A stretch of 64,000 bases of DNA from Magnetococcales bacterium (lineage in GTDB: Bacteria; Pseudomonadota; Magnetococcia; Magnetococcales; JADFYX01). The stretch's first letter is position 1, and each line of letters opens with the position of its first letter. Positions 829 through 15,184 of this stretch are shown here, piece by piece. A program made the position numbers and the translations under genes. The notes beneath the pieces were generated by a model. The model worked only from the letters and a program-made list of their open reading frames with translations, made no database searches and was not told the DNA's origin. The stretch spans positions 1 through 64,000 of the forward strand of contig PEAM01000023.1 in NCBI GenBank assembly GCA_002753565.1, in the 5' to 3' direction.

Positions 829-855
829 TTTAAAGTGCCATTTTGGCACTTTAAA
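829..855. promoter_or_regulatory. Perfect palindrome, candidate operator 1
   Basis: Left arm TTTAAAGTGCCA (829-840), spacer TTT, right arm TGGCACTTTAAA (844-855): a perfect 12-bp inverted repeat. It sits between divergent phage genes. It could be a repressor operator or a hairpin; the second site nearby with the same CA-TTT-TG core favours a protein-binding site. Confidence 0.5.
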
Positions 856-861
856 TCTGTG

Positions 862-876
862 GTCGCATTTTGCGAC
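862..876. promoter_or_regulatory. Palindrome, candidate operator 2
   Basis: Arms GTCGCA and TGCGAC flank the same TTT spacer, giving the same CATTTTG centre as the palindrome at 829-855. The two centres lie 27 bp apart, which is between two and three helical turns. The shared centre and close spacing suggest paired regulatory sites. Confidence 0.4.
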
Positions 877-1100
877 TTCAAACCTATCGCACTCCAGTTG
901 GCCAGCCATCATGCGGCATACTTGTTGGGCAACCCGACTCTCAATCCCGTCATTCCTCCCAGCCAGTTCACACACCGTCATTCACGACACCGACCCAACA
1001 TAATGATTTTATTCTAAAAAAACCGCTTTTATTAACTGGATAAGCGATTCGGATCTATGGCTTATGGTAATCAACATCAACGCAGGAACAGGAGGTAGCC

Positions 1101-1313
1101 ATGAGAACCCAGGGCCACACAGACACAGCCAAACAGCAACCCGGAACGATAGCGCTTAATGACCTCTACACAGTTATTGACGACATGCGGCGCACCGAAC
1201 TCAACCGCCAACGCCAATGGACTGAACAGGGCTGGGAAGACACTGGCGATTGGAGGGAAAGCAACGGAGTCCTGGACGCATTGGCCACCATCACACGCCG
1301 CTTCAACAAGTAA
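1101..1313 (+). CDS. Small phage protein, function unknown
   Basis: A 70-residue charged soluble protein (MRTQGHTDTAKQQPG...). A strong ribosome site, AGGAGGT, lies a few bases before the ATG. It is the first gene of a compact rightward set in which the next start follows after 12 bases. No recognisable domain. Confidence 0.65.
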   Translation: MRTQGHTDTAKQQPGTIALNDLYTVIDDMRRTELNRQRQWTEQGWEDTGDWRESNGVLDALATITRRFNK

Positions 1314-1325
1314 AGGAGACCGACC

Positions 1326-1532
1326 ATGAACAGACAGGCTATCAACAGCATGACACACACAGCCGACAAGGCTGGGCTACTCAAAGGCACCGCTTATTTT
1401 TGGCTCCACCGAGCCGATGCGATTCGCTTTCGAGTCTCACTCTCGGAACGAGCCTACGAAGTCGCCATCCGCGCCCGCCGAGACCGCGCCCAGACCAACC
1501 ACATCAACGCCGAGACGGAGGTAGTATCATGA
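1326..1532 (+). CDS. Small phage protein, function unknown
   Basis: A 68-residue basic protein (MNRQAINSMTHTADKAG...) preceded by the ribosome site AAAGGAG. The stretch around residues 15-50 looks helical and could form a DNA-binding fold (AGLLKGTAYFWLHRADAIRF), but no family is recognised. Its stop overlaps the next start in an ATGA junction. Confidence 0.6.
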   Translation: MNRQAINSMTHTADKAGLLKGTAYFWLHRADAIRFRVSLSERAYEVAIRARRDRAQTNHINAETEVVS

Positions 1533-2107
1533 CCAACCTCACCCCCACCCAACGCACAGCCCTTGAGACAGCCGCCACCCGGCCGCAAGGAAACATCTTC
1601 CCGGTTATCTCCGCCTCCGGGAAGGAACTGAACGGCGGCGCCGCAGGCAAGGTGATCAGCGCGCTCGCCAACAAAGGACTGGCACACGATGCCAGCCTCA
1701 ACCCTCCTTACTGCAACTGGCAGATCTCCAACGCCGGGTACGAGGCCATCGGCCAGGAGCCACCGAAGAAGGAAGAGCCCACACCGGTTGAGGAGGAACC
1801 AGAGACCACCAACGAGATCCTGGATAATTTCCTGGATGGCCTTTCCATCAAAATCCGGCGCGGCTCCAAAAAGGAGATGGTGATCGCCATGATGCTGACC
1901 GAGGGGGGAGCCAGCAACCTGGAGATCGCTGAGGCTACCGGCTGGGCTGCTCACACCATTCGCGGATTCATTGCCGGGACGCTTAAAAAGCAACTTGGCC
2001 TGGTCATCGATACCGAGCGGGATTTTGTCCACACCGAAACCCGCCGCAAGTACTTTACCAACTACCGGATCGTCGGCAGGAAGATGGCCGGGCAAGAGGA
2101 GAACTGA
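1529..2107 (+). CDS. DUF3489-domain protein
   Basis: A 192-residue protein starting at ATG 1529, inside a longer open frame that begins at 1250. This start has a GGAGGT ribosome site and overlaps the preceding stop (ATGA). The N-terminal 75 residues resemble a short helical repeat, followed by an acidic proline-rich linker (EEPTPVEEEPETT). The C-terminal 85 residues match DUF3489, a winged-helix-like domain with the signature TGWAAHTIRGFIAGTLKK followed by LG. DUF3489 proteins are common on phages and plasmids and their role is unknown. Assignment of the domain is from motif recognition. Confidence 0.75.
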   Translation: MTNLTPTQRTALETAATRPQGNIFPVISASGKELNGGAAGKVISALANKGLAHDASLNPPYCNWQISNAGYEAIGQEPPKKEEPTPVEEEPETTNEILDNFLDGLSIKIRRGSKKEMVIAMMLTEGGASNLEIAEATGWAAHTIRGFIAGTLKKQLGLVIDTERDFVHTETRRKYFTNYRIVGRKMAGQEEN

Positions 2108-2109
2108 TC

Positions 2110-2421
2110 ATGGCAACCCAATCGCAACACACACCCGGACCATGGGAGATGAAAAAACGAATCGGCCATAATGAGGGTGGATGGGATATTATCCGCCCCC
2201 AGAAAGCAATCGTAGCGACAACCTTTTCATCCGATGAGGAGGAATCCAACGCCAGACTGTTGGCCGCTGCCCCGGATCTGCTTGAGGCTGTAGACTGGAT
2301 CATCAACGGCCATCCGAACGCTAAAAAGATCGTGACCGCCATGTTGATGGCCGGGATTTCTAAAGATGATCTTAACGTCTGGAAGGAGACCATTGCCAAG
2401 GTGAAGGGGGAAGATCAGTGA
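2110..2421 (+). CDS. Phage protein of the HTPGPW type
   Basis: A 103-residue protein with the hallmark HTPGPW near the N-terminus and NARLLAAAPDLLEAV in the middle. This combination is frequent in small phage and prophage proteins of unknown function. The ribosome site GAGGAGA lies before the ATG, and the gene follows the DUF3489 gene directly. Its stop overlaps the GTG start of the next gene. Confidence 0.7.
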   Translation: MATQSQHTPGPWEMKKRIGHNEGGWDIIRPQKAIVATTFSSDEEESNARLLAAAPDLLEAVDWIINGHPNAKKIVTAMLMAGISKDDLNVWKETIAKVKGEDQ

Positions 2422-2669
2422 CCATCGAAGTCACCGATACCTTCAGAGGCCGGTACAACTGGGTTGCCAATCTCCACGAGGTAGGCGACCCGGTTCTCGA
2501 CCGGGTGCGGCGCTACAACATGACTGTCGAGCAACTCCATCAGCTATTCCGCCAGATGAAAGCCATGGAGGCCGAACTGACTGCCTTGGGTGAGGAGATC
2601 GAAGCCAAAGCCCATGAGCATTGGACGCCGGAGGAGATTGCCGCTGCGAGGGAGGAAGTGGGGGGATAA
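2418..2669 (+). CDS. Small phage protein, function unknown
   Basis: An 83-residue protein starting at GTG 2418, which overlaps the preceding stop (GTGA). It is highly charged and helical, with a coiled-coil-like centre (LFRQMKAMEAELTALGEEIE). It is the last gene of the rightward set beginning at 1101. A hairpin, CGCCCCA/TGGGGCG, follows 6 bases after the stop. Confidence 0.6.
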   Translation: MTIEVTDTFRGRYNWVANLHEVGDPVLDRVRRYNMTVEQLHQLFRQMKAMEAELTALGEEIEAKAHEHWTPEEIAAAREEVGG

Positions 2670-2675
2670 TGGGTG

Positions 2676-2692
2676 CGCCCCACCGTGGGGCG
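2676..2692 (+). terminator. Hairpin after early gene set
   Basis: CGCCCCA-CCG-TGGGGCG forms a 7-bp GC-rich stem just after the stop of the last rightward gene. No T-run follows, so this is a weak candidate for a terminator. Confidence 0.3.
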
Positions 2693-3133
2693 AATTCCGT
2701 TATTGATGGAATGATCTGCACCCCAGGTTTTCTATAACAACAAAGAATACACTGTCTATCATTCTAGAATCACAAGAAAAATCTCTGCCCCAGGTGAAAG
2801 GGGTGCTGGTTTTGATGTTTTTCGGTGATTTTTACTCGCAACTGTTCAAAAATACAGCAGAAAAAAGGTGGACTGTGTTGTGGGTAGTTCCAACTGGATA
2901 AACGAAAAGATCGAAAAGTATGGTTTTGTTGAAAATCAAGACTTTGTGAGTATTCCCCAAAATGGGGGAAAACCCCAAGGCGGTGTCTAGCCAAAGAACA
3001 CCACCTCATCCTGGACATAGACTCAACCAACGGCTAAACCTTTACACAACACAACTTCTTCTTCAGGATACCAAGAATAACCAGATAACCGATAGTTGTT
3101 TACGGGTGATATGCTGAAACATACCAACTTTGA
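2693..3133. other. Stretch without intact gene
   Basis: Apart from the antirepressor remnant, this stretch is AT-rich and has no convincing intact gene. An 86-codon minus-strand frame (2770-3030) is the antisense of the remnant and has no ribosome site. Confidence 0.5.
2868..3037 (+). pseudogene. AntA/AntB-type antirepressor remnant, frameshifted
   Basis: The + frame from 2868 reads SNWINEKIEKYGFVENQDF and then SIPQNGG before a TAG at 2988. This matches the AntA/AntB antirepressor core, normally a WI...RI.KYGFVE..DF pattern. After the TAG a shifted frame (2990-3034) continues AKEHHLILDIDSTNG and ends at TAA 3035, resembling the usual continuation K(D/E)YHL.LD. The N-terminal part is degraded. 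The fragment is too short and broken to be functional. Confidence 0.6.
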
Positions 3134-3150
3134 TTAACCCACTGGGTTAA
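3134..3150. promoter_or_regulatory. Operator palindrome of the toxin-antitoxin operon
   Basis: TTAACCCA-C-TGGGTTAA is a perfect 17-bp palindrome ending 24 bp before the toxin start codon. HigA- and MqsA-type antitoxins repress their own operon by binding such sites, so autoregulation by the downstream XRE protein is likely. This role is inferred. Confidence 0.6.
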
Positions 3151-3174
3151 TAATATCTTGGACAATCTGTTTAA

Positions 3175-3522
3175 ATGGATATAGTATTTAGGTCAAACAA
3201 GTTGGCAAAATCCTTCAATGAGGGGTCTGTGCTTGTGAAAATTCATGGGAAAATGCGGGCCAAAAAAATCAAACTCCGTATGATGGAGTTACGGGCAGCA
3301 AATAGTTTGATGGATTTCTGGCCTCCCAAGAGTGGACCAGCCCGTTGCCATGAAATCTCCAAGGGGTACCGCTACAACAGACTATCCGTTGACTTGGATC
3401 ATCCATACCGCTTGATCTTCAAACCAAACCATGATCCAGTGCCTTTACACGATGAGGGAGGCCTGGACTGGTCCTGTGTAACCGCGATTACAATACTCGG
3501 GGTGGAGGATACTCATGAGTAA
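3175..3522 (+). CDS. higB: HigB/RelE-family toxin
   Basis: A 115-residue protein with the RelE/HigB fold signatures: an N-terminal F+SNKLAKSF stretch, LKxxMxELRAANSL helices, ARCHEISKGYRYNRLSVDL and PYRLIFKP. HigB-type toxins are ribosome-dependent mRNA endonucleases that are neutralised by their antitoxin. The toxin gene comes first, as usual for higBA, and its end overlaps the antitoxin start by 8 bases. A 17-bp palindrome lies upstream. No strong ribosome site is seen. Symbol is by family, not proven orthology. Confidence 0.75.
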   Translation: MDIVFRSNKLAKSFNEGSVLVKIHGKMRAKKIKLRMMELRAANSLMDFWPPKSGPARCHEISKGYRYNRLSVDLDHPYRLIFKPNHDPVPLHDEGGLDWSCVTAITILGVEDTHE

Positions 3523-4615
3523 CAGTCAGCAAAATCAATATATCCCTGATTATCTGGTGGCCCCAGGTGAAGTACTGGATGAATATTTGCAAGCGTACCC
3601 CATGACACAGGCTCAACTGGCCATGCGGACCGGGCTAGCCAAAAAGACCATCAACGAGATTATCAAGGGCAAGTCTCCAATCACAACCGATACGGCGCAA
3701 AAACTGGAGCGGGTTTTGGAGCGGCCTGCTCATTTCTGGAATAACCTGGAACGCCAATATCAGGAGGACAAATCCCGTCTGGCAGAACAGGAACGGCTGG
3801 AAACGGAATTGGATTGGCTACAATGGGTTCCAGTAGCCAAGATGATCAAATTGGGCTGGATTGAGAAGTTCAAAGACAAAAAAGATCAGCTTGGAGCCGT
3901 TCTGAACTTTTTTGGTGTCGCCTCACGTGAACAGTGGGTAGATGTCTGGGAATGGACGAACTCTCAGTCGGCTTATCGGCAGACCAAACGTTTCGAAACC
4001 CGTGCCGAGGCGGTTTCTGCTTGGTTGCGTAGAGGAGAAATCGAAGCCCGGAAGATGCCGTGCGCCCCATTTGACAAGGAGCAATTCCAACAAGCTTTGG
4101 AAAAGATCCGTTCTCTCACCACTCAAACACCGGATGTGTTTCAGCCAAAGCTCATCGAGTTATGCGCCTTGGCCGGTGTTGCCGTGGTATTCGTGCCTGA
4201 ATTGCCCAAAACCGGGATCTCAGGTGCCACCCGCTGGCTGGGAGATAAAGCGGTCATCCAGTTGAGCCTGCGCTACAAAAAAAACGATTATCTCTGGTTT
4301 ACATTTTTCCATGAAGCAGGCCACATCATCAAACATGGCCGTAAGGAAATATTTATCGAAGGAAATGGCCTGGACGGTGATAAGGAGGAGGAAGCCGACA
4401 AGTTTGCCCGGGATTGGCTGATTCCTCCTGCCAACCTCCGTGCTTTTCAGCGCAAATGGGATGGACGATCGTTGGATCCGGTTGTCGATTTTGCCAGAGA
4501 GATAGGCATAGCTCCAGGAATTGTAGTGGGCCGCTTGCAGCATGACAAATTGCTGCCTGTCACCCACGGCCACAAACTCAAAATTACACTCCGTTGGAAG
4601 AATGCAGAAGTTTGA
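3515..4615 (+). CDS. HigA-like XRE antitoxin fused to ImmA/IrrE peptidase
   Basis: A 366-residue two-domain protein. Residues about 15-80 are an XRE/HigA helix-turn-helix (VAPGEVLDEYLQAYPMTQAQ, then LAMRTGLAKKTINEI). Residues about 205-330 are an ImmA/IrrE-type zinc metallopeptidase with HEAGH at 266-270 and a following EEEADKFARDWLIP helix that supplies the third ligand. Plain HigA antitoxins are about 100 residues; peptidase-fused versions exist in phages and mobile elements. The gene overlaps higB. The peptidase may cleave a repressor or the protein itself, but no substrate can be read from the sequence. Confidence 0.8.
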   Translation: MSNSQQNQYIPDYLVAPGEVLDEYLQAYPMTQAQLAMRTGLAKKTINEIIKGKSPITTDTAQKLERVLERPAHFWNNLERQYQEDKSRLAEQERLETELDWLQWVPVAKMIKLGWIEKFKDKKDQLGAVLNFFGVASREQWVDVWEWTNSQSAYRQTKRFETRAEAVSAWLRRGEIEARKMPCAPFDKEQFQQALEKIRSLTTQTPDVFQPKLIELCALAGVAVVFVPELPKTGISGATRWLGDKAVIQLSLRYKKNDYLWFTFFHEAGHIIKHGRKEIFIEGNGLDGDKEEEADKFARDWLIPPANLRAFQRKWDGRSLDPVVDFAREIGIAPGIVVGRLQHDKLLPVTHGHKLKITLRWKNAEV

Positions 4616-4650
4616 TAAATTTGCGGGGCACGTTTCAAACGAGCCTCACC

Positions 4651-5115
4651 CTAAGCGGCCTCTTTCTCATCCAACCCGGCATCAATGGCCAGGGTAGCCA
4701 GCCAGATAGCCTTGGGTACTTTCGCCTCTCCGCTTTTGTAGTTGGCCACGGTTCGGCGGCTGACTCCAAGCCGATTGGCGGCCCGTGCCAGGGACAGGTC
4801 ATGCTTGCCCATCCAGTGAGCAAAATGCTCGGCGGTCATAACACCCTTTTCCGGGAGTATCCGCCGGGCATAATCCTGTAGCGTATCGGTACTGATCCCG
4901 CGACCGTTCGGCCATTCGATGGCCCATCCATGGTGGGTGATTTTAGCCTGGATAAACTCATCCGGTGAAAATGGCTTGGATGCCGGAAAAGCACGGTCAA
5001 TGATTCTATAGTCGAGGGTATCCGTTTTCCCGTCCATCCAGATCATGGAAAGGGTATAGGTGTCTGGATCGGTTTCGATACTCTTAAGCCGGTATGGGTA
5101 ACTCTCTTGACTCAT
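4651..5115 (-). CDS. DUF2442 plus helix-turn-helix protein, putative antitoxin
   Basis: The start at ATG 5115 is preceded by AAAGGAGA and gives 154 residues; the frame continues upstream to 5238, but that part overlaps the neighbouring gene. Residues about 10-75 match DUF2442 (YTLSMIWMDGKTDTLDYR ... WAIEWPNGRGISTDTL). Residues about 100-145 form a Cro/C1-like helix-turn-helix (LSLARAANRLGVSRRTVANY). DUF2442 genes often pair with DUF4160 genes as proposed toxin-antitoxin-like modules, as here. The promoter carries a palindromic site (5148-5167) that probably mediates autoregulation. Confidence 0.75.
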   Translation of the reverse strand: MSQESYPYRLKSIETDPDTYTLSMIWMDGKTDTLDYRIIDRAFPASKPFSPDEFIQAKITHHGWAIEWPNGRGISTDTLQDYARRILPEKGVMTAEHFAHWMGKHDLSLARAANRLGVSRRTVANYKSGEAKVPKAIWLATLAIDAGLDEKEAA

Positions 5116-5147
5116 GGCCGTTCTCCTTTCAATTTCGCTGCAATCAT

Positions 5148-5167
5148 TATAGTGCAAATTCTGCATA
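5148..5167 (-). promoter_or_regulatory. Promoter-operator of the DUF2442 gene
   Basis: On the minus strand, TTGCCT and TATAAT are separated by 17 bases that contain the near-palindrome TGCAGAATTTGCA. The same element, in the same register to its -10 box, precedes the DUF4160 gene. A repressor bound here would block RNA polymerase. Confidence 0.6.
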
Positions 5168-5179
5168 TAGGCAAGCACA

Positions 5180-5419
5180 TCACCCTTTCTTGTGAATTTC
5201 CTCCCATGCTGCAAGTGCTTTCTCGCGGTTTTCCTCAACCCATTTGATGGCCTTTTTGACCTTCCTTGCCGGGCCTACGGCCTTGATTACTTCCAGGGTC
5301 TTTATGTTCAGCTTGATGCGAACCGCTCCGTCCGGGCTGATTATATGAACGTGGGCCGGAATATGATCGTTTGGAAAAATTGAAATTGTGATCCCGTTTA
5401 TTCTTTCAATTTCGCCCAT
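5180..5419 (-). CDS. DUF4160 protein, putative toxin-module partner
   Basis: A 79-residue protein (MGEIERINGITISIFPNDH) with the DUF4160 core: a short beta stretch, the PNDHIPAHVHII motif, and a helical C-terminus ending in ALAAWEEIHKKG. The ribosome site GGGAG lies before the ATG. It sits 64 bases upstream of the DUF2442/HTH gene, each with its own copy of the same operator. DUF4160-DUF2442 pairs are proposed toxin-antitoxin-like modules; the biochemical function is unknown. Confidence 0.75.
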   Translation of the reverse strand: MGEIERINGITISIFPNDHIPAHVHIISPDGAVRIKLNIKTLEVIKAVGPARKVKKAIKWVEENREKALAAWEEIHKKG

Positions 5420-5459
5420 GTTCTGCTCCCGTTGGTTATTGCTCTTTGTTGAGTACTAA

Positions 5460-5479
5460 TATAGTGCAAAATTTGCATA
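5460..5479 (-). promoter_or_regulatory. Promoter-operator of the DUF4160 gene
   Basis: TGCAAAATTTGCA at 5465-5477 is a perfect palindrome. On the minus strand it lies inside the 17-base spacer between TGGAGA (-35-like) and TATATT (-10). The flanking TATAG...ATA is shared with the site at 5148-5167. Confidence 0.6.
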
Positions 5480-5625
5480 CTCTCCAGGATGAATCGACCA
5501 GAAAGAAAAAAATATCCTGCAAAAACCTCCATTTACTGGTTGCAAGCTCTGCGAACTGTTGCTACAGCTATGTCCAACAAAAAAGATCAGCAAAAAACGT
5601 CAGCTTTTCAGTGAGGTAGAGAGCG

Positions 5626-5871
5626 ATGGAGAAGAAAACAACGCAGAGCCAAGAAAGTGAATTTCAACCGGCCATGTTGGCCTATTCGGCCCCGATGATG
5701 GGAATAAAACTTCAACGCATTCATCGAGCACAATCCGTTCTCGATCTGGTGCGGGATGGTCTGGGCCGATCGTCGGACCCAAACCGTGATCAATGGGTTG
5801 ATTCGTTGCTGATCGTCGGGGAGGAGTTGGATAGGTTGTTCGATGATATCACGGTTGGCCGCAGGGTTTAG
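5626..5871 (+). CDS. Small hypothetical protein
   Basis: An 81-residue soluble protein (MEKKTTQSQESEFQPAM...) with a GAGGT ribosome site 9 bases before the ATG. The centre (RIHRAQSVLDLVRDGLG) and C-terminus (WVDSLLIVGEELDRLFDD) are helical, similar in style to small phage regulatory proteins. It lies alone on the + strand between minus-strand genes. No family recognised. Confidence 0.5.
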   Translation: MEKKTTQSQESEFQPAMLAYSAPMMGIKLQRIHRAQSVLDLVRDGLGRSSDPNRDQWVDSLLIVGEELDRLFDDITVGRRV

Positions 5872-5973
5872 CCAGGCCGAAATACCGGGGATGGGCGTAA
5901 TACAATACCCTTTGGGGGAATATGCCCACCGCTTTTTTCTGCGCGGCTTTCGATCCCCGGTGCCCACCATCCA

Positions 5974-6342
5974 TCAAAACGTTTGTTTCAAAATATTGAA
6001 AATCTGACGGGTAGTAAGATCAAAGGCCACCGCCAGTTCCCCTGGTAGCTCCCCCGCATCAAACCTCCGGATGATTTCCTGATCCCGCCGCCTGCGTTTG
6101 GCCTTGGTCCCAAGGCACAATAGAAGCTGGTCCCCACCGTAGCTTTTAGACAACCGATATGCCACCTCTTTCCCCAGCAACCCGACCAAACGGTGATGAT
6201 CCGCCATCTTCCTCGGAACATAGATCCGCTGGCCAGGATGTTTCGCCATCAACCGCTCGGTGGAGGCTACACCGATGACCATGGCCAGATCGATCATGGA
6301 TTGCGGCCAGTCTTCCGGGATCTTCTCTGTTTTTTCTTCCAT
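5974..6342 (-). CDS. Mor-family transcription activator
   Basis: A 122-residue protein matching the Mor/C family of Mu-like phages in length and layout: WPQSMIDLAMVIG at the N-terminus, RIYVPRK in the beta-strand dimer region, a GLLGKEVAYRLSKSYGG middle, and a C-terminal helix-turn-helix (ELAVAFDLTTRQIFNILKQ). Mor proteins activate phage middle or late promoters by binding dyad sites. The upstream region 6370-6560 contains repeated GTAAACC motifs that may regulate this gene. Its targets are not identifiable here. Confidence 0.75.
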   Translation of the reverse strand: MEEKTEKIPEDWPQSMIDLAMVIGVASTERLMAKHPGQRIYVPRKMADHHRLVGLLGKEVAYRLSKSYGGDQLLLCLGTKAKRRRRDQEIIRRFDAGELPGELAVAFDLTTRQIFNILKQTF

Positions 6343-6369
6343 ATAGAGCGGTCTTTTCGGTTGTGATGG

Positions 6370-6560
6370 GTAAACCTGTTTTTAGGGAATTTGTACCTGG
6401 ATTTCTCGGTTTTTTGATCGTCAACCGCTTCTCCAGTTTACTAAGACACCGGTAAACCAAGTTTTCCAGACCGTAACGTTCTATTTTTCAAACGGATATA
6501 CCCGACTTAAACGGTAGGATATTGGCTGTAGGTTACTCCAAGTAAACCTATTTTTCTGAC
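6370..6560. repeat. Cluster of GTAAACC-type direct repeats
   Basis: Imperfect copies of GTAAACCtaTTTTTC start at 6370, 6452, 6473 and 6542, with inverted partners GTTTACT (6436) and GGTTACT (6531). They lie directly upstream of the minus-strand mor gene. Likely binding sites for a phage regulator; no protein can be assigned from sequence. Confidence 0.45.
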
Positions 6561-6977
6561 TGTAAAAACCCGAAAAAGCCGCCGCGCGCGGTACCCGCAG
6601 AGAACTGCCCCCCAAAGGAACCAAGAGGGGGGTACCCCCTGCTGGCCACGTGTGCCAGCGTGTGGCGACATCACGGTTGCACTGGTCCGGTACAACCATC
6701 TGATCAACACGCGGCCGCACACGGCTTGAGTTTATCAGCCGCTCTGAACGAGGAAGGCATCCAGGAGACCACTCTCTCACCCAAGCAGTGGCCCCCTGGA
6801 TCATTTGGCAGCGCCATGGCTCAACCCGGCTCCACCCAGCCAGGCAGGGGCGACGACCACCGCTTGCCCCTTCGTCCCGTTGGCCTGGCAGTAGGGTAGC
6901 CTGAGAGACACCGAGCGTGGATCAACAAGGAAGGAGTCCTCTCCACACGCTCCAACTTCCCACTCGCCTCGGGAAGA
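6561..6977. other. GC-rich structured region without convincing gene
   Basis: This 400-base stretch contains the palindrome GGGGGTACCCCC (6628-6639), the flanking C6 and G6 runs, and an imperfect hairpin GCTGGCCAC/GTGCCAGC (6641-6659). A 107-codon minus-strand frame (6481-6804) crosses the repeats, lacks a ribosome site and has an implausible composition. A structured RNA or a recombination remnant are both possible. Confidence 0.4.
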
Positions 6978-7541
6978 TCAGGAGAGCAACCTCTTTTCGA
7001 TTTCGGCGGCTCTTGATTCCAGGTCGACAGAGTCATCCATGCGATAGCCCTTCGTACCATCCGACAGAACAGCCACTGCGAAAGCATGCTGATCTGGATG
7101 GAAGAATGCTGATTCGTAGGCAATGAGTAGATCGTCCAGTTCCTCTTGGTGCCGCTCCTGGAAAGCTCCGGCCATCTGCTTGAATGCCGTCCGCCAGAAT
7201 GTGAGCCGGGCTTGATGAGCCCTATCCTCGAATGGAGTCGGCGACAGGTTCCAACCGAGTTCCGTTGTGACCTGGGATTGTCGGGTGGTTATGTGCTCAG
7301 TGAGCTCCTCGATACGATCAACAACCTCACTGAGACGCCGCTTCTGTTCCCCGATCTCTGAAAGTGATTGATCCTGGCCATATGCACGATGGATCTGGCG
7401 CTTTTCCTCTTCCAACCGGTCAAGCTCCACAGAGGCCGCGTCGAGCTCACGTTGTAGGCAAGTCAGTTTCTGCCGGGCAGTCTGGAGAGTGGCGACCGCC
7501 TGGTCTTTCTGTTTGGCGAGTTCCTGCAGGTTGGTAATCAT
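6978..7541 (-). CDS. Phage coiled-coil protein, paralogue of upstream gene
   Basis: The start at ATG 7541 has the ribosome site AAGGAGA and gives 187 residues. Residues about 5-90 form a long coiled coil (QKDQAVATLQTARQKL, LDRLEEEKRQIHRAY). The C-terminal part contains FWRTAFKQMAGAFQERHQEE and ends AAEIEKRLLS. The same layout and similar C-terminal sequence occur in the gene at 7613-8200, so they are tandem paralogues. They sit downstream of the prohead protease, where head-assembly genes would be expected, but the function is unknown. Confidence 0.65.
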   Translation of the reverse strand: MITNLQELAKQKDQAVATLQTARQKLTCLQRELDAASVELDRLEEEKRQIHRAYGQDQSLSEIGEQKRRLSEVVDRIEELTEHITTRQSQVTTELGWNLSPTPFEDRAHQARLTFWRTAFKQMAGAFQERHQEELDDLLIAYESAFFHPDQHAFAVAVLSDGTKGYRMDDSVDLESRAAEIEKRLLS

Positions 7542-7612
7542 CTTGTCTCCTTCTGGAGATTGGTTGCAGGATGGCCCCACCGGTCGAAGTGAGACCACCC
7601 TCGAGGAAATAA

Positions 7613-8200
7613 TTATTTCAGGATCTGGGTTTCGATTTCCTGGGTACGTTCGGCGAAGTTCTCCGGGTGTTTCCCGTAGATGTCATGCCGTCCACCGATC
7701 AAAACAGCATCGGCGAACATGGACGGGGGAGTGATCATTCCGCCGCCACGATACAACACAAAAAGTTGGTCGAGTTCGGCAGCATGCTCTTTGCGGAACT
7801 GCTCAACCTCAAGGCTGAAGACAGCCCGGAAAAAAGTCTCTGTCGCACTCTGTGCCGTACGGCGAAGCCCTCGTATAACGTGATCACCAAGCTCATTGTC
7901 CAGACGATCAATCAAAGCCTGCGCCAGTTCGTCATGATCTTGCAGCGCCTCCTCGGCAGTTCGGAAACCTTTCCTGGCCACATTCAGACGGGTCATCCCC
8001 CCTTTCTGATCCTTGGCAACGGAAGCGAGCGCCCCCTCTTTCTCATCGTTGGCAACACGAATGGCCTCTTTCAATTTCACCCGCTCCGATTCCATCTCGA
8101 CTATCCGGGCCTGGAGAGTATCCCGTTGCTCCTCGGATGCCTGCAGATCAGCCATAGCATCGTTCTTCGCGGCGGCAAGTTTTTTCAGTTCGGTACTCAT
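7613..8200 (-). CDS. Phage coiled-coil protein, tandem paralogue
   Basis: A 195-residue protein with an N-terminal coiled coil (KLAAAKNDAMADLQASEEQR) and a globular C-terminus containing FFRAVFSLEVEQFRKEHAAE and ending TQEIETQILK. Positions align with the following gene (FWRTAFKQM...ERHQEE, AAEIEKRLLS). It lies 44 bases after the protease-scaffold gene on the same strand. A structural or assembly role is inferred only from position. Confidence 0.65.
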   Translation of the reverse strand: MSTELKKLAAAKNDAMADLQASEEQRDTLQARIVEMESERVKLKEAIRVANDEKEGALASVAKDQKGGMTRLNVARKGFRTAEEALQDHDELAQALIDRLDNELGDHVIRGLRRTAQSATETFFRAVFSLEVEQFRKEHAAELDQLFVLYRGGGMITPPSMFADAVLIGGRHDIYGKHPENFAERTQEIETQILK

Positions 8201-8244
8201 GATTTTCTTCCTCTATATTTCAGTGTGAATGATTTCAGTTGTTA

Positions 8245-8556
8245 TTACGGGCGTGCGTTGGCTTCGGTGAGGTATGCTTCATGAACCTTTGGATGGTTGT
8301 TGACCACCTCTCTCACGGCCTCCGACCGGGATTTTCCGGCTTCAACGGCCATGTCTACCAGTCCATTAAACATGATTTTTCCGGCTCCATCGGCGGGTTT
8401 CTGAGAGTTGGCCGGTTGTTCGTTGATGGCTCGGATATAATCTTGGTGAGCCTCCGGGTAATGGTGGGCTATATGCCGGCTAGCTTCGGACTTGGATTTC
8501 CCCTCGGCTTGAGCCTGGGCAAAAAGCTGTTCGTATTCATTGATCGGGTTGGTCAT
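8245..8556 (-). CDS. Possible nested scaffold protein from internal start
   Basis: In frame within the protease gene, ATG 8556 is preceded by AAAAAGGAAA at suitable spacing and would give 103 residues starting MTNPINEYEQLFAQAQ. This product contains the last two of the three C-terminal repeats and no protease domain. Nested scaffold genes at the 3' end of ClpP-type protease genes are known in lambda-like phages. Expression from this start is inference. Confidence 0.4.
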   Translation of the reverse strand: MTNPINEYEQLFAQAQAEGKSKSEASRHIAHHYPEAHQDYIRAINEQPANSQKPADGAGKIMFNGLVDMAVEAGKSRSEAVREVVNNHPKVHEAYLTEANARP

Positions 8557-9366
8557 GGTTGGGGTTTCCTTTTTGGGTTGGATGTGGGTGTTTTTGGCGC
8601 CAAAGGCTTTCCTATAGCCGATGGGGTCTTCCTGGGAGACTTTCGCAACCGCGTCAACCATGCGCATGCCTCCGCTGTTGACCAGTTCCAATATTCTCGC
8701 CTCAGCCCCTTTCGTCTGGACTGTCTTTGGCCTTGGCGGGGTTGTCGGTTTGGAGCCCGATGATCTGAGCGACATACTGCGGGCCTGCGCCACAAGTTGA
8801 GCCGGGGGGCATGAAAAGCAGGTCAGATCCATATGGGCCGTGACCTCAATCGGGCCGGTTACCTCATCGCAAAAACCTTTTTCCTTGGCCTCGGCGGCAG
8901 TTAGCCAGGTTTCAGCGGACATCATCTCCTTGATCTCTTCAACCGATATACCGGTTTTCCAGGAGTATTTATTCGCCAGGGTATCCCGAACTTTATCCAA
9001 GGTCTGGCCCATTTTTCGCATTTTCTCAGCGTCACCGGCAACCGTGCCACTGGGATTGTGGACCATCAGAAACGAGTTGCTCGGCATGACCAGCTTTTCA
9101 CCGGAAATGGCGATCACACTGGCTATGCTGGCGGCCACGCCATCAACATGAACAGTGACAGTGCGGCGCCGCTCGATGGCGTTTGAAATAGCCAGCCCCT
9201 CGAAAACGCTTCCGCCTGGCGAATTGATGTACAAATCAACCGGTCCGGTTGACTGGCTCAGTTCACCGATGAACTCTTTGGCTGTGATGCCGTATCGGCC
9301 GATGGAATCGTGGATGTTGACCACGGTCCGATCTCCCTTGTTTTGAAATTCATACCAACTCTGCAT
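8245..9366 (-). CDS. ClpP-type prohead protease with C-terminal repeat region
   Basis: A 373-residue protein. Residues 1-185 are a ClpP/crotonase-fold phage protease: LYINSPGGSVFEGLAI, a catalytic serine in DGVAASIASVIA, and a histidine in FLMVHNPSG. Phage proteases of this type process head or scaffold proteins during capsid maturation. Residues about 225-373 contain three repeats of roughly 35 residues, centred on VDAVAKVSQEDPIGYRKAF, SEASRHIAHHYPEAHQDYI and SEAVREVVNNHPKVHEAYL. An internal ATG with its own ribosome site (8556) could produce a separate scaffold, as in lambda C/Nu3. Confidence 0.8.
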   Translation of the reverse strand: MQSWYEFQNKGDRTVVNIHDSIGRYGITAKEFIGELSQSTGPVDLYINSPGGSVFEGLAISNAIERRRTVTVHVDGVAASIASVIAISGEKLVMPSNSFLMVHNPSGTVAGDAEKMRKMGQTLDKVRDTLANKYSWKTGISVEEIKEMMSAETWLTAAEAKEKGFCDEVTGPIEVTAHMDLTCFSCPPAQLVAQARSMSLRSSGSKPTTPPRPKTVQTKGAEARILELVNSGGMRMVDAVAKVSQEDPIGYRKAFGAKNTHIQPKKETPTMTNPINEYEQLFAQAQAEGKSKSEASRHIAHHYPEAHQDYIRAINEQPANSQKPADGAGKIMFNGLVDMAVEAGKSRSEAVREVVNNHPKVHEAYLTEANARP

Positions 9367-9568: not shown

Positions 9569-10027
9569 TTAGTGAATAGTTTCTGAACCCGAATGCCAAT
9601 TCATCGAAAGGCTGGCCACAAAATCATCAGGCAGCCGGTAGGCGGCTGGTTCAGTATTGGTTGATCCAGATTGGCAATTGATGAGTTTGACCGCCTCTGC
9701 TGAAATTCCATCTTCCCAAGCTACGACCAGGAGGGCATCTCCATCACGAGCTCTTCGAACGGCCTCTTTCAATCTGTGTTTTGCAGTTTTCTTCCGGGAA
9801 ATCTCAACGATGATCAATGTCCCGTTGTGCTGTTCCGTGGCCGCTGCAATTGTATTCAGAACATGCTGCCCAAGTTCTGAGACCATATTTATGTCCCGGC
9901 TGATAGTGAAACCGAGGAATACGGTCTTGTGGCGATTCACTACAGTCTCGAAAGCCATGATTTTGAATTGGTCGTGTACCTGTAGGGGGTATGATTTCAC
10001 GCTGTACTGTCCTTGATCTGACGCCAT
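9569..10027 (-). CDS. Phage hypothetical protein
   Basis: A 152-residue open frame starting MASDQGQYSVKSYPLQV; a later start (MAFETVV, about 9958) is possible because no clear ribosome site precedes 10027. The centre has alternating hydrophobic strands (TVFLGFTISRDI, GTLIIVEISRKK, DALLVVAWEDG), suggesting an alpha/beta fold. The first start overlaps the upstream gene by 31 bases. Function unknown. Confidence 0.5.
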   Translation of the reverse strand: MASDQGQYSVKSYPLQVHDQFKIMAFETVVNRHKTVFLGFTISRDINMVSELGQHVLNTIAAATEQHNGTLIIVEISRKKTAKHRLKEAVRRARDGDALLVVAWEDGISAEAVKLINCQSGSTNTEPAAYRLPDDFVASLSMNWHSGSETIH

Positions 10028-10314
10028 TCAATTTGTGACTCATCAAAAGCAACCGGTGGATGACATCGGCCGCAGCTCCATCCAGCCCAATCGTGGCGCT
10101 TCCAGAACTTCACCCCGGCGCAAACGTAGCAGATGGTGTTCTCTGCCTTATCCTCCGTGTGACACGAGGAAACTGTTTTGTGCAGAGCAGGTGTCACAGA
10201 ATTTTCTTTGTTTATATAAATAGTTGCAGGCTGTTGTGACACTTGTGACGCCTGTGACACCTGTTTTGTGTCTACCTTCTCGACATCTTTCAGACACTCA
10301 TCCCAGATCGACAT
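9997..10314 (-). CDS. Zinc-ribbon-like phage protein
   Basis: The start at ATG 10314 is preceded by GAGGAGGAA and gives 105 residues. The C-terminal half has CYVCAG and SCGRCHPP, a C-x2-C...C-x2-C pattern typical of a zinc ribbon. The N-terminal half includes VSQASQVSQQ, which is encoded by 9-bp repeats of the TGTGACACC type that also occur outside the gene, so DNA repeat constraint rather than protein function may shape this part. It lies just downstream of the candidate origin. Confidence 0.6.
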   Translation of the reverse strand: MSIWDECLKDVEKVDTKQVSQASQVSQQPATIYINKENSVTPALHKTVSSCHTEDKAENTICYVCAGVKFWKRHDWAGWSCGRCHPPVAFDESQIEWRQIKDSTA

Positions 10315-10470
10315 ACCATTCCTCCTCACATGTGTGCGCGCATACCCCCGTCACACCCGTCACATACACCCTCTATATATATCTAAATAATTAATATATT
10401 TATATTTATAGAGGACAAACACTGTGACACCGTCACGTCACAACCTGTGACACCTGTGACACCTGCCATT
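10157..10470. repeat. Iteron-like 9-bp repeats and AT-rich block, candidate origin
   Basis: The octamer TGTGACAC occurs at 10158, 10235, 10253, 10423, 10446 and 10455, a variant TGTGACGC at 10244, and an inverted copy GTGTCACA at 10191. The groups at 10235-10260 and 10446-10462 are spaced exactly 9 bp apart. Between the groups lies an AT-rich block (about 10371-10412) made almost wholly of A and T. The primase-helicase gene starts its coding region next door. Iterons plus an AT-rich unwinding region beside a replication gene is the layout of many phage and plasmid origins. Confidence 0.55.
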
Positions 10471-10472
10471 TC

Positions 10473-13013
10473 TTACCCTTCGCGGACAATCACCCGATAA
10501 TCAAAACACCATGCCCGGCACTGAACCTTACTTGGAGAACCGTTCTTGGTAACATCAAAGCGATCACGCCTTGTTCCAACATAAGATGGATGTTCCTGAA
10601 GTGCCGGTTGCAGATCCTTGAGGTTGAACGATGTGTGGTTTTTCTCGCGGAGATAGGCCAGACAATTTTCTACGTGAACAACAATTTCCCCTTTATCTTT
10701 CCTGAGCAGGATCAAGGGGACGTCAGCAAATCGCTGATCAATATCCTGCTCCATCAGTACCTTCAAAAATGAGTCGGCAATCGTTTCTTGCCGTTGCTCA
10801 CACTCAGCCATCTTTTTCTGGCCAATCATCTCAATGTATGGGAGCAGGTTGTGGTCAATACCAATAATCGCTGACATCAACCGGTGGAACGCCAGAAGAA
10901 TACCGTGGTTCTCATTGATCCGATTATCTGGAACAGATTGCTGCAGATCCTTCTTGGCTCTTTCAAATGCTGTCGGCCATTGCTTCTCGATCTGTTTTCT
11001 GTGTTTCATGATCTCAGTAAAAAAACTGGCAAGCTCCGGTAAAGCCATCTTTGTCAGTGTGTCATAAGCTGACCTTGTCACATCGGTAAGGCTGTCTTTG
11101 GAAATTCCGACAGAGATGACTCGTTCTTTCTGGGCCCGGCTACTGAACGCCTCTGTGTTTTGGACGAACATCAAAGAGGCCAGGAAAGGAATATCTCGGG
11201 TCCGGGTATCTGTAGTTTTTAATGCCTGCACCTGGAGCGCATTTCCATAGTTGTACAGAGGAAGAATGCTATCGACATCAAACCGTATTTTTTCCCTGTC
11301 ATTCCCTTCGATCAGAGCTTTGAACATTCCCGATCGTTGGGCCAGCTTCCGAATTTCTCCCTTACTCGTGTTGACCCGGTTCATGGCCAGACCTTCTTCA
11401 TCAAGCCCTTGTATTGCATTCAGCAGACGGACAAGTCTGGACTTCCCGGTCTGAGGATCACCAAAAATAGATAGAAAAGGGAAAAAACCGATCTCCTCCT
11501 TGATCTGATTCACCCACCAGCAAGCAACCACCCAGGCTATTGCAGTGATTCCAACCTCACCCCAGGCTTGATAGACAAGCTTCCATATCTCAGCCGGTGG
11601 TTTGCCCGCCTCAGGCTTCAGGGATGGTTGTTGTACTGGTCGAACTTTATCTGAACGGGAAAGGTCGAAGATTTTTCTCTTGTTTGGGAGTAGGAGTTTT
11701 CCACCTCGATCAATGGCAAAATTCAAAAGAACATAACACCCGGTTTTGGAGTCATATCCGGTCGTAGTCAGTTGTCTGACAACCGGCGCACCAGATTCCA
11801 CAATCTTTCTGGCCAAAGCTAAAGATGGGTTCCGGTCACCTTCCCAAAGCACTCTGGATCGCTGCATGAACACCGCAGTCAGTTTACTGGAACTAGCCAA
11901 TTCATCCGCCGTGACGCTGCATGACACCGTCTTCCCTTTTCTCGGTGAGATGTTTAGATGGAATCGGTTTATCGGCTCATCCTGATTGGTGTCATCCAAT
12001 TGGAAGTGGTCAACCTCAACGGTAAAGTTTGAGACTTTGCGGGAATGAAGCTCAGGAGGTTTTTTTTCTGTCCCTGCTTTTGCGTAGGAGTAATAATGAC
12101 AACCCTGAAAATCAAACAGGCCAGGAACACGGCCGAAAAAGCCATGATAGACCTCGACGTATTCTTGTGCAGTGCTGGCCAGAGATAGAGACGCTCTGGT
12201 CTCGAACTCATCAAAGCTTTTTTCAAATCTTTCCTTTGCGGTTTCCAGCGATCCGGCCTGCAGAAAATCATTCCAGTCTCCGATGATCGGCTCTATGGCC
12301 CCAGCCTCTGGAAATGCCTCCTTCCATTTCTTCAGCGCCCTACGACCCGCTGCATCCCTATCAAATCCGAAAACCAGCTTTGGGAATTCGTCGAGATCAA
12401 ATTTTTCAGGTTTTTGCCCAGCAGATAATAGTGCAATTGCCTGATTACCCATCTCGACATGGGAAAGAGCATCAATGATCCCTTCTGTGGCGATAGTTCT
12501 CTGATTCGGATCATATTCAATTCCAGGATGTTGCCAGTAAAGCCCACCGCACGAACCGGAATTGTGAGTTTTTCCTTCTCCTTGAGGAGGATTGAATAAC
12601 CGACCGTTTTCCACTCCGTGAGCAACTTCAAACATAACCCCACCGCTCCCGGTTCGGCGGATATTCGGCTGATAACGATACTTCAATCCCTCAAGTGACT
12701 TGTTGAGCCCACGCATTTGCAGGAAAGCAGTTGCCGGTTTGTTTGGATCCTCTTTCGTCGGCTTGTAATCTCGTTCAACCTGCTGTTTCAACTCAGGGAA
12801 CAGATCAAGGGTTTTCACCTTGGCGCCACATTTGTTCAATCGGTTGCAGATAACTGCCAACGGAGATTTAGTGTATGCCCAAGCTTCCTTGCTTCCACAT
12901 CCAGAGCAAACAAGTCCCGACATGCTGGATTGGTTTTCCCGGAACTTCGGACCACGATATTCAGAATCTCGCAGCCGATCTCGAACCTTGTCTATGAACA
13001 GGGAGTCAACCAT
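10473..13013 (-). CDS. Primase-helicase, replication protein
   Basis: A protein of about 846 residues from ATG 13013; a GTG at 13025 is an alternative start. Residues about 30-65 form a zinc-binding domain (CSGCGSKEAW ... CNRLNKCG). A TOPRIM-like primase region follows (ATEGIIDALSHVE near 171-183 and FGFDRDAAG near 215-223). A Walker A motif, GDPQTGKSR, lies at 518-526, within a DUF927/helicase-like ATPase region. Such proteins prime and unwind DNA for phage, satellite or plasmid replication. The adjacent iteron-like repeats support an origin nearby. It is in the integrase-to-structural direction of transcription. Confidence 0.8.
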   Translation of the reverse strand: MVDSLFIDKVRDRLRDSEYRGPKFRENQSSMSGLVCSGCGSKEAWAYTKSPLAVICNRLNKCGAKVKTLDLFPELKQQVERDYKPTKEDPNKPATAFLQMRGLNKSLEGLKYRYQPNIRRTGSGGVMFEVAHGVENGRLFNPPQGEGKTHNSGSCGGLYWQHPGIEYDPNQRTIATEGIIDALSHVEMGNQAIALLSAGQKPEKFDLDEFPKLVFGFDRDAAGRRALKKWKEAFPEAGAIEPIIGDWNDFLQAGSLETAKERFEKSFDEFETRASLSLASTAQEYVEVYHGFFGRVPGLFDFQGCHYYSYAKAGTEKKPPELHSRKVSNFTVEVDHFQLDDTNQDEPINRFHLNISPRKGKTVSCSVTADELASSSKLTAVFMQRSRVLWEGDRNPSLALARKIVESGAPVVRQLTTTGYDSKTGCYVLLNFAIDRGGKLLLPNKRKIFDLSRSDKVRPVQQPSLKPEAGKPPAEIWKLVYQAWGEVGITAIAWVVACWWVNQIKEEIGFFPFLSIFGDPQTGKSRLVRLLNAIQGLDEEGLAMNRVNTSKGEIRKLAQRSGMFKALIEGNDREKIRFDVDSILPLYNYGNALQVQALKTTDTRTRDIPFLASLMFVQNTEAFSSRAQKERVISVGISKDSLTDVTRSAYDTLTKMALPELASFFTEIMKHRKQIEKQWPTAFERAKKDLQQSVPDNRINENHGILLAFHRLMSAIIGIDHNLLPYIEMIGQKKMAECEQRQETIADSFLKVLMEQDIDQRFADVPLILLRKDKGEIVVHVENCLAYLREKNHTSFNLKDLQPALQEHPSYVGTRRDRFDVTKNGSPSKVQCRAWCFDYRVIVREG

Positions 13014-13332
13014 CGCCGCCAACACCCCTCTGAGCTGACTTTCGTTTTCTAAACATTACAGATACTTAGCCAGGATTAACTGAATTTCTGCACCTGTGCG
13101 CAGTGTTTCCCACGGTGAGAGATTACACACTGGGGGAGTCCGTGCGCCGGTTGTCGGCTGGGCAAAAAAAAGAGAGGGTATTCGTTCCATCTGTACTCCT
13201 TCCGGCCATCCTGCCACCCACTCTGAACAGCTTCAGCGTGTTCCTGGAGCGGGTTTTCTGGCAAAATGGCGGTCACTTGGTTGGTAGCAAGTTTAGCCCC
13301 TGGGGACGCCTGGCCCCGGGGGTTTTGTCGTT
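13014..13332. other. Gap between primase and excisionase genes
   Basis: A 66-codon minus-strand frame (13076-13276, GTG start, CVISHRGKHC near its end) is possible but lacks a ribosome site. A GC-rich hairpin, CCCCTGGGG/CCCCGGGGG (13297-13322), is followed by TTTT on the + strand. Nothing else is recognised. Confidence 0.35.
13297..13326 (+). terminator. Hairpin with T-run, possible terminator
   Basis: CCCCTGGGG and CCCCGGGGG pair with one mismatch around an 8-base loop and are followed by TTTT. The polarity fits the + strand, where no gene lies upstream, so its role is unclear; it may block transcription running against the excisionase gene. Confidence 0.35.
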
Positions 13333-13641
13333 TTAGGTATTGACAGTTTCTGCAGTTGACCGTTGGATGCGATCAGCAATCCATTTTTCGCAGTCAACAC
13401 GCCGATAACGAATAGCGGTTCCAATCCTAAAAAACGGAATGAAATCACCTGTCATGCGAGCTTTGGCTTGGGTAGATGTGGGGATGTTGTATTCTTTAGC
13501 CAACCCCAGAGGAGTAAGAACCTCGGGTTTCAACTTAAATGCTTCAGAATTATGAAACGTGTCCTTGATTAGGTTCTCAAGGAATTGTTTAAGTGAGTCA
13601 GCAGATCCTGGAATACTGCCTTGTGGGGTATCGGGATTCAT
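13333..13641 (-). CDS. Excisionase-like helix-turn-helix protein
   Basis: The start at ATG 13641 has the ribosome site GGAGAGA and yields 102 residues. Residues about 45-95 form a winged helix of the AlpA/excisionase type: EVLTPLGLAKEYNIPTSTQA, then a wing and RIGTAIRYRRVDCEKWIADR. Such proteins bend attachment-site DNA or regulate the integrase. It is located 155 bases downstream of the integrase gene on the same strand. Confidence 0.65.
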   Translation of the reverse strand: MNPDTPQGSIPGSADSLKQFLENLIKDTFHNSEAFKLKPEVLTPLGLAKEYNIPTSTQAKARMTGDFIPFFRIGTAIRYRRVDCEKWIADRIQRSTAETVNT

Positions 13642-13796
13642 CTTTCTCTCCAACGTGTGATGTGTAGGAACCCTGTTGTAATCAGAGCTACTAAGGGTTT
13701 TCACCGGCGTTGGGAAGAAAGGTTAGGCCATGTCAGGAGCCTGTATAAAACGGAAGGATTTCCGCAAACATAAATGTAAATTATTTCAACATGTTG

Positions 13797-14951
13797 TCAT
13801 GCTTTTTTCTGTTTTCTTGCTTTATCAAGGCTCACCACTTGAGCGATCCCACTTGATGCTTTTCGCAATGCCTCATCCTTGATATGAGCGTACCGTTGGG
13901 TCATCGCCCCAGTTTTATGTCCAAGCAATTGTTGGACGTGATACAGTTCTGCCCCTGAGTTAAGAACCATGCTAGCGAAGGTGTGTCTTAGGTCGTGAAT
14001 TTTCATATCTTCAATCCCTGCATTTTTGATTGCTGTCGCCCATGGCTTTTTCACGGTGGTGAGGTGTGCGCCAGGCTTTTGTCCGGGAAAGACATACATG
14101 CCGATCTTAACATCCTCCTGACTTTCAAGGATTTCCATTGCAGCATCATTCAAAGGGATTACCTGGCCACTTGATTTTTTTCCCTTGGTAAACGGAATCC
14201 TCCACTGCTTTCGATCCATGTCAATATCTGCCCAACGTGCGGACAAGACGCTTCCAGATCTGGCTCCTGTAAATAGCATCAGCCCGATTGCTGCCCTTGA
14301 TACGGGACTTGTCTTCTCCAGTGCCTGAAACAACCGGCCAAGCTCATCCTCATCCAACCACCGGGTGCGCTGGTTATTCTCCTGCTCTATTTTGACTCGC
14401 TCGGCAGGGTTCGCATCAATAATCTTTTCATGTATGAAAAAGTTAAACATCGTTTTGATCAATGCAAGATATCGATTGCAGGTGGCTATGGCTCGCCCAT
14501 CCGACTTAACGCTGGCAATCATCCGGCGAACATCTCTTTCCGTTATCGTATTAACGGGCCGATTACCCCAGGCAGGGATCAATCGAAGGTTTAGCTTGTT
14601 CTGATCATCTTTCAGGCTTATTTTGCCGCTGGCATGGACCAGATACCTTTCGGCAAATTGACCGAAGGTAGGGACTTCCCGGTCATCTCTTCGTGTCTGT
14701 GCAGGGTCTTCCCCTTTCGACGCCAACCGCAATAATTCAACTGCCTCTTTTCTAGCTTGTTCCAGGGTCCATTTCCCAAAGTCACCAATAGCATACCGTT
14801 TGGATGCCCGACCGATCCGGTAACGAATCATGAAGCTCTTTCGACCACTCGGGTATACCCGCAGAACAAATCCTTTTAGAGAATCATCGGAATATTCCAC
14901 TCGTTTTTCGGTAGGCTTCAGGCTGTCTATCACTCGCTTTGTCAGGTTCAT
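13797..14951 (-). CDS. int: Tyrosine integrase
   Basis: The start at ATG 14951 is preceded by GGAG and gives 384 residues. Residues 1-85 are the arm-DNA-binding domain of DUF4102 type (RVIDSLKPTEKR, GKWTLEQARKEAVELL). The core-binding domain follows (TFGQFAERYLVHASGKIS). The catalytic domain has the arginine in LMLFTGARSGSVLSARW, the HDLRHTFAS box, LGHK, and the tyrosine nucleophile in AMTQRYAHI. The gene lies next to the tRNA-Thr fragment into which it presumably integrated the element. Confidence 0.9.
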   Translation of the reverse strand: MNLTKRVIDSLKPTEKRVEYSDDSLKGFVLRVYPSGRKSFMIRYRIGRASKRYAIGDFGKWTLEQARKEAVELLRLASKGEDPAQTRRDDREVPTFGQFAERYLVHASGKISLKDDQNKLNLRLIPAWGNRPVNTITERDVRRMIASVKSDGRAIATCNRYLALIKTMFNFFIHEKIIDANPAERVKIEQENNQRTRWLDEDELGRLFQALEKTSPVSRAAIGLMLFTGARSGSVLSARWADIDMDRKQWRIPFTKGKKSSGQVIPLNDAAMEILESQEDVKIGMYVFPGQKPGAHLTTVKKPWATAIKNAGIEDMKIHDLRHTFASMVLNSGAELYHVQQLLGHKTGAMTQRYAHIKDEALRKASSGIAQVVSLDKARKQKKA

Positions 14952-15125
14952 GGCACACTCCATAGGGGAAAATGACAGCTATTCCGTGGATCTACTCATA
15001 CTGTCTGGGGACACAATAGGGACACATCTGAACGGAATTCAGGGGAATCTCTAGGAACATAATAAACCGAATTTCTGCAAAATCAATAGGTAAGAAATCT
15101 CAGGAAACGTCAGGAAAGGCGGATA

Positions 15126-15176
15126 CTCGGATTTGTAATCCGTAGGTCACGAGTTCGACTCTTGTCGCCGGCACCA
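15126..15176 (+). tRNA. 3' fragment of tRNA-Thr(UGU), attachment site
   Basis: The sequence contains an anticodon arm with loop TTTGTAA (anticodon TGT), variable region AGGTC, a T arm ACGAG-TTCGACT-CTTGT and the 3' acceptor strand ending ACCA at 15176. The 5' half (acceptor strand and D arm) is absent upstream, so this is not a complete gene. A half tRNA beside an integrase is the usual sign of an att site; the intact tRNA should lie at the other end of the element. The shared core probably begins near 15128. Confidence 0.8.
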
Positions 15177-15184
15177 TTAAAATC

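Follow-up and report, generated by a model that had tools for sequence, protein, structure and literature searches.

A cluster of short repeats around an AT-rich block, lying directly 3' of a primase-helicase gene in a Magnetococcales bacterium, is best read as the replication origin of a prophage: an iteron origin of the P4/SaPI type, recognised by the adjacent primase-helicase. We give this reading a probability of roughly 0.85. The computational analysis, centred on a window comprising the first 64,000 nucleotides of contig PEAM01000023.1, establishes the array, its position, the AT-rich block, the recurrence of such arrays next to initiators both related and unrelated, and the fold predicted for the neighbouring protein.

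Repeat array and its prophage setting

Within 305 bp, seven exact copies of TGTGACAC, six forward (10158, 10235, 10253, 10423, 10446 and 10455, plus strand) and one inverted (10191, minus strand), are accompanied by one TGTGACGC variant at 10244, which completes a triplet with 9-bp spacing (10235/10244/10253); the same spacing separates the copies at 10446 and 10455. Outside the array the window holds a single further TGTGACAC (15909, minus strand). Whole-window shuffles gave a mean of 1.46 and a maximum of 6 copies, and eight were reached in none of 100. The best 8-mer in 10157-10470 occurs 7 times, against a mean of 1.9 and a maximum of 5 in 2000 dinucleotide shuffles, and elsewhere in the window no other 8-mer family attains 5 copies per 314 bp. 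No other 40-mers among the 63,960 of the window are as AT-rich as the four that start at 10371-10374 (92.5% AT). Immediately left of this block a degenerate pair with 9-bp spacing was recognised by eye (CGTCACAC at 10349-10356, CGTCACAT at 10358-10365); because its members carry at least two mismatches to TGTGACAC, they were left out of the eight copies. An earlier note on this DNA had described six copies, an inverted copy and a variant, in groups at 9-bp spacing, with an AT-rich block of about 40 bases, and the recount and shuffles confirm that description. The array begins about 10 bp past the stop of the 850-aa primase-helicase gene, on its 3' side. The features of the locus are as follows.

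8245-9366, minus strand: ClpP-type head maturation protease
9997..10314, minus strand: small zinc-ribbon gene with iterons in its 5' part (VSQASQVSQ); AGGAGG site and ATG at 10314
10157..10470: putative origin of replication formed by the iterons and the AT-rich block, immediately 3' of the primase-helicase gene; based on the repeats and on the same position in relatives
10158..10165, plus strand: iteron TGTGACAC within the zinc-ribbon gene
10191..10198, minus strand: inverted iteron TGTGACAC within the zinc-ribbon gene
10235..10260, plus strand: iteron triplet TGTGACAC, TGTGACGC, TGTGACAC at 9-bp spacing within the zinc-ribbon gene
10349..10365: degenerate pair next to the AT block, CGTCACAC / CGTCACAT, identified by eye
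10371..10413: possible unwinding element, the AT-rich block with the most AT-rich 40-mers of the window
10423..10430, plus strand: iteron TGTGACAC
10446..10462, plus strand: iteron pair TGTGACACCTGTGACAC at 9-bp spacing, ending 10 bp from the primase gene
10473..13025, minus strand: primase-helicase, 850 aa, with a Toprim/DnaG-type primase, a Cch/SaPIbov1-Rep-like helicase and a C-terminal winged-helix-like region
13333..13704, minus strand: weak excisionase/HTH-like protein of the same element (phrog_66, E 2e-4)
13797..14963, minus strand: tyrosine integrase of the element (PF00589, E 1.7e-33)
15111..15177, plus strand: tRNA gene fragment (3' portion), with a TGT anticodon as judged by eye

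The zinc-ribbon gene is taken as 9997-10314, and not as the mechanical ORF extending to 10329, because an AGGAGG ribosome site accompanies the ATG at 10314; with this start, the coding sequence contains five of the eight copies, and the remaining three lie between genes. The observation that copies within the gene generate the peptide VSQASQVSQ likewise held on re-examination, for those five copies, and a constraint on the coding sequence from a function at the DNA level is plausible. A search for homologues of the gene found none, and a motif search found no zinc-ribbon gene near any of the 42 TGTGACAC arrays described below (among the matches listed) or at any of 30 VapE loci.

On the minus strand the order of the element is integrase, excisionase-like gene, primase-helicase, array, zinc-ribbon gene, a small gene and the head maturation protease; a late transcriptional activator (5974-6342) is also present. 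The tRNA 3' fragment beside the integrase likely marks the end of the element at its attachment site; no complete tRNA is called by ARAGORN at 15111..15177, and the fragment has 86-88% matches at two places on contig C7. Since the window starts at base 1 of the contig, the element may be incomplete at its left end. The ORFs scanned between 309 and 9366 match no terminase, portal or capsid family, and this region is a candidate cryptic prophage, satellite or truncated contig. PICIs are small elements under AlpA- or Stl-type control. No AlpA match was found in the ORFs scanned, the contig beginning inside or at the element, and with its head maturation protease the whole element is not classed as a PICI. 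An iteron plasmid origin of the Rep_3 type was also considered and rejected, as the adjacent ORFs scanned contain no initiator of the Rep_3/RepA family beside the iterons. Elsewhere in the window, a small protein of the phrog_3066 toxin-antitoxin toxin family directly precedes a regulator with HTH and M78-peptidase regions (3175-4615, plus strand), a gene pair resembling the HigBA type.

The adjacent primase-helicase and arrays beside its relatives

The 850-aa protein matches Toprim_2 (E 2.6e-7) and the 'DNA primase' family phrog_1139 (E 1.4e-82). It was modelled with AlphaFold from 42 sequences, namely 41 of 46 listed representatives and the window protein, giving a mean pLDDT of 82.7. In the predicted structure, residues 88-284 match the primases T7 gp4 and DnaG (Z about 12-15), residues 300-809 match SCCmec Cch (5dgk; Z 23.4, 388 residues, rmsd 4.1), and residues 301-753 match SaPIbov1 Rep (8tch; Z 22.1, 359 residues, rmsd 3.8). 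Poxvirus D5 and MCM matches of the helicase lie near Z 11, and a D5-type helicase was rejected, this value being well below those of Cch and Rep. The C-terminus (775-842) is modelled as strand-strand-helix-helix-strand-strand at a pLDDT of about 60-70, an arrangement compatible with a winged helix. The proposed initiator is thus predicted to carry a putative self-loading Rep-type helicase domain plus a Toprim primase.

Relatives of the protein in phages and plasmids are 20-30% identical, and ten of 31 phage and plasmid matches were taken forward for locus reading. Single-protein searches of viral_contigs and genome_contigs yielded no close relatives, and among 48 genomes of the class only the protein's own genome matched. 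As a single-protein query was insufficient, relatives were gathered by profile search; of 133 primase ORFs, 128 were retained after removal of four low scorers and a partial ORF, and these fell into 52 clusters, for each of which 620 bases around and after the primase stop were searched.

A strong exact array, defined as at least six copies of a 7-mer, is present in four of these 52 phrog_1139-type clusters and in none of the other 48. The four are the window itself, phi3 (CGGAACA, 10 copies), Providencia L014 (GTTACAA, 6 copies, with 8 more beyond) and L133 (ACTGAAC, 6 copies). Shuffles of their downstream regions reached at most 4 copies, and upstream or in-gene segments never reached 5. When one mismatch was allowed, 9 of 51 clusters exceeded the best of 12 shuffles downstream, compared with 1 of 51 upstream. 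A partial relative from Candidatus Lambdaproteobacteria (L041), outside the 128 ORFs and read by hand, carries TGGCACCG/CGGTGCCA repeats immediately past the end of the gene, together with a 9-bp pair and an AT-rich block. The clusters that lack a strong exact array may rely on sites that are degenerate or lie farther away, or on another mode altogether.

In phi3, CCGGAACA/CTGGAACA repeats surround AT-rich DNA 3' of the primase. Scanning with the phi3 word recovered at least 21 phrog_1139-type loci with an array 3' of the gene, which form 7 clusters about 52-58% identical to phi3 (among the matches listed). Their geometry is nearly fixed: counted from 30 bases before the primase stop, the first pair is found at about +75 to +90 in six clusters, the AT-rich block at about +115, and the last pair at about +377 to +390 in all seven. 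The question raised by the earlier note, whether the repeats persist in relatives that share the primase, therefore has a divided answer. Position and architecture recur, in phi3 and its 7-cluster clade, L014, L133 and L041; the letters do not, as no TGTGACAC array was found at any other phrog_1139-type locus examined, nor is recurrence frequent, with strong exact arrays in just 4 of 52 clusters.

The same repeat word beside other initiator families

A scan of viral contigs with TGTGACACNTGTGACAC returned at least 120 loci, which were used as a sample, and a reversed-letter control returned 36 in all. Four or more copies within 500 bp occur at 50 of the 120 test loci (among the matches listed) versus one of the 36 controls; that sole control locus (L396, 395-440) is a tandem array with a 9-bp period whose word, TGTTCACAG, is close to that of P4; it lies near an ORF at 1289-2494. 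Nine of ten long neighbouring proteins scanned are replication proteins (among the matches listed), comprising VapE-like, DUF5906, D5_N, PrimPol-DUF3987 and Toprim-DUF5906 proteins and the DUF5906-polymerase proteins of phrog_4210. Pfam searches of 58 neighbouring ORFs gave DUF5906 in 15 and VapE in 11 (among the matches listed), neither of which appeared in 31 control ORFs; one control ORF encodes a DUF927 protein, and integrase families were matched among the control ORFs as well.

De-duplication reduced the 50 TGTGACAC arrays to 42, and the following counts again hold among the matches listed. A primase or helicase ORF related to the seeds lies within 2.5 kb of 18 of the 42 distinct arrays, compared with 0 of 31 control ORFs. 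Thirteen of these 18 arrays lie directly 3' of the initiator (0-70 bp) and five on the 5' side of phrog_4210-type proteins; the latter (L199, L252, L256, L263 and L267) precede large proteins combining a DUF5906 helicase region with a DNA polymerase. The other 24 have no seed-related initiator ORF within 2.5 kb. Ten ORFs at nine of these 24 were inspected: four, at three loci (L193, L205 and L157), are primase/helicase-like, and the rest are tail, head, lysis, terminase or unknown proteins. At two loci with 11-12 copies (L253, 7178-7437; L195, 5976-6321) the nearest scanned ORF encodes an endolysin or a head protein.

Counting all loci, duplicates included, 35 of the 120 TGTGACAC loci have one of the searched-for initiators within 500 bp, 30 with the array on the 3' side and five on the 5' side, as do 24 of 120 TGTTCCGG loci, all 24 on the 3' side and 21 of them with the same primase type as the window (both among the matches listed). 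None of the 36 reversed-pattern control loci has an initiator within this distance.

VapE genes were also collected by protein. In 22 of 30 clusters at least 5 copies of a 7-mer lie downstream, in many different words; these arrays exceed the best of 30 shuffles, and none of the clusters reaches 5 copies upstream or within the gene. Word frequencies in this set are biased, since the query was seeded by TGTGACAC-linked proteins, and because the seeds also had an array downstream, the set gives no fully independent evidence on position either. In a comparison seeking a DNA-binding domain exchanged between VapE proteins and the window protein, C-termini of the own family scored equally high or higher (best z 6.4 vs 3.9); the phrog_1139 and VapE profiles match in the Walker A region only (probability 12.5%), and the VapE structure model (pLDDT 52) was too poor for comparison. 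Module exchange, common recognition and a common host factor are candidate explanations for a word common to several initiator families.

Known origins, alternative explanations and proposed mechanism

In PMC6092414, PICI origins lie 3' of pri-rep and consist of an AT-rich region with a set of iterons on each side; the EcCICFT073 replicon was tested there for plasmid replication. PMC7581432 states that SaPI Rep recognises iterons directly downstream of its own gene via its C-terminal domain, and that Cch2 binds direct repeats beside its own gene (repeat word AAGTG), its isolated C-terminal domain binding the putative origin. The origins of SaPIbov1 Rep and EcCICFT073 Pri-Rep share with the window their place immediately 3' of the initiator and a pair of iteron sets either side of an AT-rich region, and the window initiator has the same predicted helicase fold as SaPIbov1 Rep; the likeness is one of layout and predicted fold. 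Unlike in PICIs and SaPIs, the window primase is of the DnaG/Toprim type and lies in the same polypeptide, and the element carries a prophage head protease. SCCmec Cch provides the closest helicase fold (Z 23.4), and Cch2 has direct repeats beside its gene; these are, however, separate helicases with no fused DnaG-type primase, and the Cch2 word differs. For pRN1 (ORF904), PMC4234260 likewise places the origin directly downstream of the primase-helicase gene, but there a stem-loop takes the place of iterons and an archaeo-eukaryotic primase is combined with an SF3 helicase.

In the P4 record, crr with its type-I repeats lies directly 3' of alpha, in 9-bp pairs of CTGTTCACA/CTGTTCACC. P4 thus resembles the window in having a Toprim primase-helicase and 8-bp repeats in 9-bp pairs and both orientations 3' of the gene, and the Toprim regions of the two proteins are related (hhalign probability 95%). 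It differs in its repeats (CTGTTCACC versus CTGTGACAC in the window), in a second repeat region near 9.1-9.4 kb, and in that the profile match to alpha is limited to the Toprim region, whereas the window helicase resembles Cch/Rep. All P4-alpha relatives in viral_contigs are 84-99% identical and therefore contributed no new iterons. In Streptococcus phage Sfi21 the origin is reportedly also downstream of a primase gene. Position, AT-rich block and 9-bp pairs match the PICI/P4 layout and, together with the predicted Cch/SaPIbov1-Rep-type helicase of the adjacent protein, support the proposal of the earlier note that this is an iteron-like candidate origin.

That the repeats mainly reflect repetition of VSQ in the product of the zinc-ribbon gene, or have clustered by chance, is scarcely credible and was rejected: five of the eight copies do lie in that gene and yield its repetitive peptide, but three exact copies and the AT-rich block are intergenic, one copy is inverted, the observed count was never reached in shuffles, and arrays recur after initiator genes elsewhere. 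We also regard it as quite unlikely that the repeats are operator or partition sites for a phage regulator or host factor. Their overlap with the start of the zinc-ribbon gene, the occurrence of one word beside different initiator families, which a common host factor could explain, and some arrays with no recognised initiator nearby (among the matches listed) would suit such sites; a 3' position kept across initiator families with different words fits recognition by the initiator better, and P4 crr and PICI origins of the same layout function in replication.

A former origin, now disused in a decayed prophage, is unlikely. The head maturation protease stands in the ORFs scanned (309-9366) with no terminase, portal or capsid match, as decay would have it, but the primase frame is intact over 850 aa, the iterons are exact and the integrase is intact; moreover, because the contig begins at the window start, missing structural genes may lie past its edge. 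Points that count against the origin reading itself are the 48 of 52 clusters with no strong exact array, the modest C-terminal pLDDT (about 60-70), the five 5'-side arrays of 35 and the 24 of 42 arrays with no seed-related initiator (both among the matches listed), and the absence of TGTGACAC at other phrog_1139-type loci examined.

For the preferred reading, a prophage origin recognised by its neighbouring initiator, P4, SaPI, PICI and Cch2 suggest by analogy how the parts may work. The winged-helix-like C-terminal region of the adjacent primase-helicase would probably bind the TGTGACAC iterons, and the protein would form helicase rings to either side of the AT-rich block; the rings would melt the block, and the N-terminal DnaG-type primase of the same protein would then prime synthesis. 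By the same analogy, the locus may support autonomous replication.

The architecture of iteron origins is known; what is new is the setting, a prophage in which a DnaG-type primase is fused to a Cch/Rep-like helicase. Searches of the open-access literature, a scope outside which most subscription papers fall, brought up no description of TGTGACAC iterons or of a phrog_1139-family origin, and no report of one iteron common to distinct initiator families. A tentative proposal, to which we assign less than even odds, is that TGTGACAC is an iteron common to Toprim-Cch/Rep-like, VapE, D5/PrimPol, DUF3987 and DUF5906-polymerase initiators, so that words and initiators would be partly interchangeable across phages; one element could then fire, block or parasitise the origin of another. 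Equally, the PICI-type architecture may be a general phage primase-helicase solution and not a PICI hallmark. The array provides a testable candidate origin for phrog_1139, a large primase family in many Peduoviridae-type phages, and makes one ask why a single 8-bp word is shared by distinct initiators.
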